Assembly (NCBI RefSeq): GCF_000619905.2
Contig: NZ_CP012371.1
Location: 930,001-994,000, forward strand
From: Nitrosospira briensis C-128
GTDB lineage: Bacteria > Pseudomonadota > Gammaproteobacteria > Burkholderiales > Nitrosomonadaceae
Length of the DNA: 64,000 nucleotides
Direction of reading: 5' to 3'
The notes below the pieces were generated by a model. The model had not been told where the DNA came from. It did not search any database and saw only the letters and a program-made list of their open reading frames with translations. Below, one piece after another: positions 40,987 to 41,663 of this stretch. Every line of letters starts with the position of its first letter. The first letter of the stretch is position 1. The position numbers and the translations under genes were made by a program.

Positions 40987-41010
40987 ATGGAAAGAGATAA
41001 GGGGAAATAA
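40987..41010 (+). CDS. Possible seven-codon leader ORF before adk
   Basis: ATG at 40987 follows an AAGGTGGAG ribosome-binding sequence and encodes MERDKGK before TAA (41008-41010). The final A of the stop is the first base of the ATC I consider the likely adk start. Ribosomes terminating here would be placed on the AAGGGG and the start of adk. Alternatively it is chance; a very short peptide cannot be confirmed from sequence. Confidence 0.35.
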
Positions 41011-41663
41011 TCATAATTGTTCTATTAGGCGGCCCCGGCGCGGGAAAAGGGACGCAGGCCAATTACATCAAGGAACATTTCGGCATTCCCCAGATATCCA
41101 CGGGCGACATGCTCCGCGCGGCAGTCAGGGCGGGTACCGAACTGGGTACCATGGCCAAGAAAATCATGGATGAGGGTGGGCTGGTTTCCGATGACATTAT
41201 TATCGGTCTGGTCAAAGCGCGCATCGCACAGCCCGATTGCGTAAAAGGTTTCCTCTTCGACGGTTTTCCCCGCACCATTCCCCAAGCGGATGCAATGAAG
41301 GCCGCCGGCGTACCCATCAATTTTGTGATCGAAATTTACGTGCCTGACGAAGAGATCATCAGGCGCTTGTCGGGCCGGCGCATGCATCCCGCCTCGGGCC
41401 GTATTTATCACGTGATATTCAATCCACCCGCCAGGGATGAGAGAGACGATGTAACCGGCGAACCGCTGATACAGCGCGACGACGATAAAGAGTGCACCGT
41501 GAGAAAGCGGCTGGAAACCTATCATGCCCAGACCGAGCCATTGGTGGAATACTATGCCAAATGGTCAGTCAGCGGCGGAAGAGGTGCCCCCAAGTACGTC
41601 AAGATAGCGGGGGTAGGATCGGTGGAAAATATCCGCGATGCCATTTTTGCTTCACTGAAATAA
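41010..41663 (+). CDS. adk: Adenylate kinase, apparently without a standard start codon
   Basis: Adk interconverts ATP+AMP and 2 ADP. The P-loop [43 protein letters not shown], the long non-zinc LID with [17 protein letters not shown], and [14 protein letters not shown] are all present. The reading frame opens at a TAA (40998-41000) and reads GGG GAA ATA ATC ATA ATT GTT CTA TTA GGC, so there is no ATG, GTG or TTG before the P-loop; the first ATG (41109) would remove it. With ATC at 41010 the product has 217 residues and aligns with MRIILLG of the family; AAGGGG lies five bases upstream. ATA at 41013 is an alternative. See the finding. Confidence 0.9.

Follow-up and report, generated by a model that had tools for sequence, protein, structure and literature searches.

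The gene infC, which encodes translation initiation factor IF3, is the textbook case of a gene with a non-AUG start (AUU, AUC or AUA) and is autoregulated; in Escherichia coli its start codon is AUU. The pcnB gene of E. coli is said to begin with AUU as well, which limits its expression. Few bacterial genes with fixed non-AUG starts have been characterised, as outlined in a study in which infC and sigR, through their non-canonical starts, come under repression by IF3 (PMC5472188). According to the same text, sigR of Streptomyces begins with GTC, its weak start is conserved in the genus, and it offers a model for IF3 control beyond infC (PMC5472188). In Staphylococcus, ccpN begins with AUA and cvfC1 with AUU; both have a conserved start preceded by a Shine-Dalgarno sequence, and in S. 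aureus they initiate less than AUG (PMC13009471). In Listeria monocytogenes the conserved gene rnhC has ATC as its fixed start, reportedly confirmed by experiment in the one species studied (PMC13068326).

Here we describe adk, the gene for adenylate kinase (Adk), in Nitrosospira briensis C-128 and other Nitrosomonadaceae. By its sequence, adk appears to join the known class of genes with a fixed AUH start (AUC, AUU or AUA). As in infC, an AUN start is combined with a Shine-Dalgarno sequence and is fixed in a lineage. However, the product of infC is the very factor by which starts are judged, hence its feedback, whereas adk has no such direct role. The pcnB product of E. coli is an RNA-processing enzyme, whereas that of adk belongs to core metabolism. 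The resemblance to ccpN and cvfC1 extends to the conserved AUH codon and the Shine-Dalgarno sequence, but these genes encode a regulator and a putative regulator (PMC13009471), whereas adk encodes an enzyme, with AUH initiation predicted from its sequence. Unlike adk, sigR uses a different codon class and encodes a regulator that shares an operon with its antagonist, and rnhC, although its ATC start is the same as that described here, has another function (PMC5472188, PMC13068326). No earlier report of a non-canonical adk start was found in the open literature, as judged by titles and abstract openings.

The adk gene and its start region

The window (the whole 64,000-nucleotide stretch of N. 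briensis C-128 DNA that was analysed) carries adk on the forward strand at 41010..41663, a frame of 217 codons plus a TAA stop when read from the non-canonical start AUC. The gene lies between an ORF ending at 40817, which we take to be valyl-tRNA synthetase-like, and one starting at 42011 that is presumably phosphofructokinase-like. Its protein scores 351.5 bits against the NCBIfam equivalog model NF001379, above the cut-off of 268 that assigns it to adenylate kinase, and residues 3-216 align to model positions 3-215 of 216. Against the solved structure of the E. coli enzyme (1ake), residue 3 of the protein pairs with residue 3, so that the N-terminus seems complete.

The adk frame is closed upstream by an in-frame TAA at 40998..41000 on the forward strand. 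The codons that follow are GGG GAA ATA ATC ATA ATT GTT CTA TTA GGC GGC CCC GGC GCG GGA AAA GGG ACG CAG, in which ATC begins at 41010 and the next ATA at 41013. The first-pass annotation held that no ATG, GTG or TTG precedes the P-loop (41028..41057, forward strand, located by reading the sequence and by the NF001379 match), and the reading frame from 40998 bears this out, with a count of zero between the TAA and the P-loop. It also held that starting at the first in-frame ATG, at 41109, would cost the P-loop; this ATG indeed lies within the conserved domain. A gene caller limited to ATG, GTG and TTG would therefore misplace the adk start, and in the window the P-loop would be lost.

The proposed start is the ATC at 41010..41012 on the forward strand, which corresponds to ATC in 23/23 genomes of the genus and to ATC, ATT or ATA in 121/121 family genes read. 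It is preceded by a Shine-Dalgarno sequence, TAAGGGG (40998..41004, forward strand), at a spacing of 6; the AAGGGG that had been noted five bases ahead of the ATC was found there, at 40999-41004. The next codon, ATA (41013..41015, forward strand), is an alternative AUH start, but a less likely one, its spacing being 9 rather than 6.

Conservation of the proposed start codon within and outside the family

We found adk in 23/23 genomes in a search of the genus and in 121/125 in a search of the family. The family set consists of 121 adk genes, one per genome and all read at the start, 23 of them from this genus and 98 from three other genera. One further locus (L203, in genome G079) was left out; it has an ATG start, is only 44% identical to the query and represents a divergent second copy, perhaps a contamination.

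At the position of 41010, the 121 genes carry ATC in 67 cases, ATT in 37, ATA in 17 and ATG in none. All 23 members of this genus (g1) have ATC, all 17 genes of g2 and g4 have ATA, and g3 is divided between ATC (44) and ATT (37). A comparison of adk 5' regions among relatives, which the first-pass annotation had proposed, places an AUH codon at this position in every member of the genus. As far as sequence comparison can tell, the non-canonical adk start is a trait of the whole family, common to every family gene read.

The picture differs outside the Nitrosomonadaceae. Among loci of the order that lie outside the family, a canonical start occupies this position or the codon upstream of it in 47/47 read; the first 27 all have ATG, and the further 20 comprise 17 with ATG, one with TTG and two with ATG one codon upstream. 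The adk loci of genome_contigs (n=80), a set that overlaps in part with these 47, include 60 with ATG and 20 with an AUH codon at the start position. Labels naming the Nitrosomonadaceae or its genera are attached to none of the 60 ATG loci and to 17 of the 20 AUH loci. One AUH locus there, L039, is labelled as a gammaproteobacterial MAG.

A proposed initiation mechanism and the third base of the start codon

We consider it highly probable that adk of the Nitrosomonadaceae is initiated at an AUH codon, which would be AUC in N. briensis C-128 and AUU or AUA in relatives. The gene would then be translated from a fixed start of the AUH class, where the ordinary initiator tRNA, with its CAU anticodon, would pair with the first two bases and place fMet at the N-terminus of Adk, assisted by a Shine-Dalgarno sequence at normal spacing. 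As IF3 rejects third-base mismatches, such a start would be weak, and the output of Adk would be throttled in inverse relation to free IF3, as for infC. We infer this weakness, the control by IF3 and a benefit in the form of a capped or buffered Adk level; the known behaviour of IF3 (PMC5472188) and the lowered initiation in the S. aureus reporters (PMC13009471) together suggest that the synthesis of Adk has an upper limit and falls as free IF3 rises. Given AUH initiation, a limitation of Adk coupled to IF3 seems to us somewhat more probable than its absence. The reduced expression that the first-pass annotation expected of such a start is plausible.

The principal competitor of this regulatory part accepts AUH initiation. 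It holds that AUG was lost once in the ancestor of the family, that the Shine-Dalgarno sequence compensates for the loss, and that slow growers tolerate the weak start with no regulatory consequence. The distribution of start codons inside and outside the family is compatible with one such origin. The behaviour of the third base speaks against it. We built a quick maximum-likelihood gene tree of adk from 285 columns, omitting the first six codons, and on this tree the third base of the start codon has undergone at least nine changes among A, C and T and never one to G; branches of high support by themselves require three of these changes under the ATC label, two under ATT and one under ATA. 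Although ATA could become ATG by a single transition, ATG is seen in 0/121 genes, and yet G occurs at the third base in 23/23 conserved fourfold columns within the first 88 codons of the same genes.

The absence of ATG alone is not proof of a start, because a conserved internal isoleucine would lack G too. Three of the 11 other mainly-isoleucine columns of adk are wholly isoleucine (121/121), and for this reason the argument from G counts only together with the upstream stops, the Shine-Dalgarno sequence and the ATG of other families. On balance, we regard a loss of AUG with no regulatory role as rather unlikely, if far from negligible.

Position of the proposed start codon

The Shine-Dalgarno sequence bears on where initiation would occur. 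A match of at least four letters is present within 20 bases upstream of the AUH codon in 120/121 family genes, and in only 22/120 in a control segment that lies 100-120 bases upstream. As a reference for spacing, we used 54 ATG genes of N. briensis C-128 with a clear motif; their spacings peak at 7 (17 genes), with four genes at 5, six at 6, eight at 8 and three at 9. The adk Shine-Dalgarno sequence stands 6-7 from the AUH codon in 23/23 genes of g1, 8 in 17/17 of g2 and g4, and 7-9 in 73/81 of g3. Counted to the preceding codon, the spacing would mostly be 3-5, and to the following codon 9-11; both ranges are rarer among the 54 ATG genes. In g1 the codon after the start, at the position of 41013, is also an AUH codon in 23/23 genes, and the exact start in this genus could lie there, one codon later. 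Spacing, together with alignment to the ATG of other families, makes 41010 the best candidate, and these two observations also lend support to the proposal of the first-pass annotation that adk is initiated at an AUC, AUA or AUU codon.

Alternatively, initiation might take place further upstream in the same frame, in which case the AUH codon would encode an internal isoleucine. A canonical codon is found somewhere in the open upstream frame of 38/121 family genes, at positions that share no common site. These include four g3 genomes that form one clade (L162, L187, L188 and L190) and have GTG four codons upstream of the AUH codon, with the usual Shine-Dalgarno sequence lost; here adk may be initiated at that GTG, in which case a canonical start would have been regained. 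In L024, GTG lies two codons upstream, and in L156 the contig end is reached before any upstream in-frame stop. Against an upstream start for the family at large, 82/121 genes have no ATG, GTG or TTG in the interval from the upstream in-frame stop to the AUH codon, and in 59/121 there is no canonical codon (TTG and the like counted) either upstream or within the first 12 codons. In alignments with the NF001379 model and with solved chains of the E. coli enzyme, moreover, residue 3 of the protein falls on residue 3. We therefore judge an upstream start to be very improbable, and retain initiation at the AUH codon.

The leader and the seven-codon ORF

A seven-codon ORF encoding MERDKGK (ATG GAA AGA GAT AAG GGG AAA TAA) occupies 40987..41010 on the forward strand. 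The ORF exists, as the first-pass annotation had described, but it is not a conserved element, and we regard it as incidental; an ATG is found at its start position in 3/121 family genes. The 'good' ribosome-binding site ascribed to it, GGTGGAG, forms the 3' arm of a hairpin predicted in the leader, CTCCGCCT-TATA-AGGTGGAG (40964..40983, forward strand), obtained from a single-sequence fold. Nor does the TAATC sequence, taken as an overlap of stop and start, have a meaning of its own, since it is merely part of ATA ATC.

It had been suggested that ribosomes terminating on MERDKGK re-initiate at adk; frameshifting from this ORF would supply them in a similar manner. The ORF does overlap the adk start in this genome. 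Its ATG, however, is too seldom kept, relatives with no such ATG have the same class of start, and the supposed ribosome-binding site is the hairpin arm. Supply of ribosomes from the short ORF thus appears even less probable than an upstream start.

In single-sequence folds of the leaders, some members of g1, g2 and g4 have a predicted hairpin that begins approximately 50 bases ahead of adk and ends approximately 20 bases ahead of it, and none passing the filter was found in others; in g3 leaders the predicted hairpins differ in place and strength. A consensus structure was sought in an alignment of 35 leaders from g1, g2 and g4, and none was obtained. Given the variable hairpins and the missing consensus, we draw no link between the hairpin and the start codon. 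In L116, L163 and L167 the predicted leader hairpin is followed by TTTATTT, an arrangement that resembles a terminator or attenuator.

Two remaining explanations can be dismissed briefly. A sequence error, a one-base change in this strain or a pseudogene has nothing in its favour beyond the oddity itself, and is contradicted by the same codon class in 121/121 genes from 121 genomes, by an open frame that matches the equivalog model over nearly its full length, and by our check for a second adk, which found a single ADK-family gene in the genome (one contig of 3,210,113 bases). A dedicated initiator tRNA cognate to AUC, AUU or AUA is just as implausible, as no evidence supporting one was found among the 44 tRNA genes of this genome; the initiator features (C1-A72 mismatch, GGG/CCC anticodon stem) occur in one tRNA, with anticodon CAU, so that no special tRNA is involved here. 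The observations expected of an AUH start are all present at the sequence level: adk lacks a canonical start, the codon is kept in relatives, the Shine-Dalgarno sequence lies at what should be a productive distance, and the ordinary initiator tRNA is the only one.

infC and the search for other unusual starts

We scanned 464 kb of N. briensis C-128 against 520 kb of genome G002, which yielded 343 conserved ORFs. In both genomes, three of these carried a flag for coding sequence that extends 5' of the first canonical codon, namely adk, infC and a weak third case, so that adk and infC are the sole two clear cases. Because infC is a known non-AUG gene, its recovery served as a positive control of the scan. 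A smaller scan, which covered 59 ORFs of the window with a looser flag, had marked adk plus several ribosomal and other genes; it is superseded by the scan of 343 ORFs. In the weak third ORF (genome positions 1296118-1297113, forward strand), 14/21 residues encoded ahead of the first canonical codon are identical, which possibly marks another unusual start or a mere overlap.

In the 31 family loci of infC that were read, the aligned start position holds ATA in 30 and ATC in one. The infC gene of N. briensis C-128 (L204; genome positions 1267208-1267807, reverse strand) has AUA there. In two loci, L247 and L249, a TTG lies four codons upstream of the start position. We also checked pcnB, a second candidate named in the literature, in this genome; it has a plausibly placed ATG.

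Implications for the Nitrosomonadaceae

A broader proposal, which we put forward tentatively and hold to be possible rather than probable, is that, from the origin of the family onwards, selection has prevented the start codon of adk from becoming AUG. Under this proposal adk and infC would form a small regulon read by IF3, Adk synthesis would follow the autoregulated set point of IF3, and the adenylate balance would be tied to the fidelity of initiation.

We also looked at an association with ammonia oxidation. AMO was found in 9/22 genomes searched, a count that says little on this point, as many of the genomes that lack it are drafts. The 13/22 with no AMO-family match are G023-G026, G028, G116, G118, G120-G124 and G036, some of which are described as almost complete; the absence may reflect contigs that are missing or a loss of ammonia oxidation.

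The examples of fixed non-AUG starts that we met are mostly regulators or proteins of RNA metabolism and translation, and adk would place such a start on a central energy enzyme. The adk gene of these nitrifying bacteria may therefore provide a natural and testable case in which the choice of a start codon serves as a means of metabolic control.
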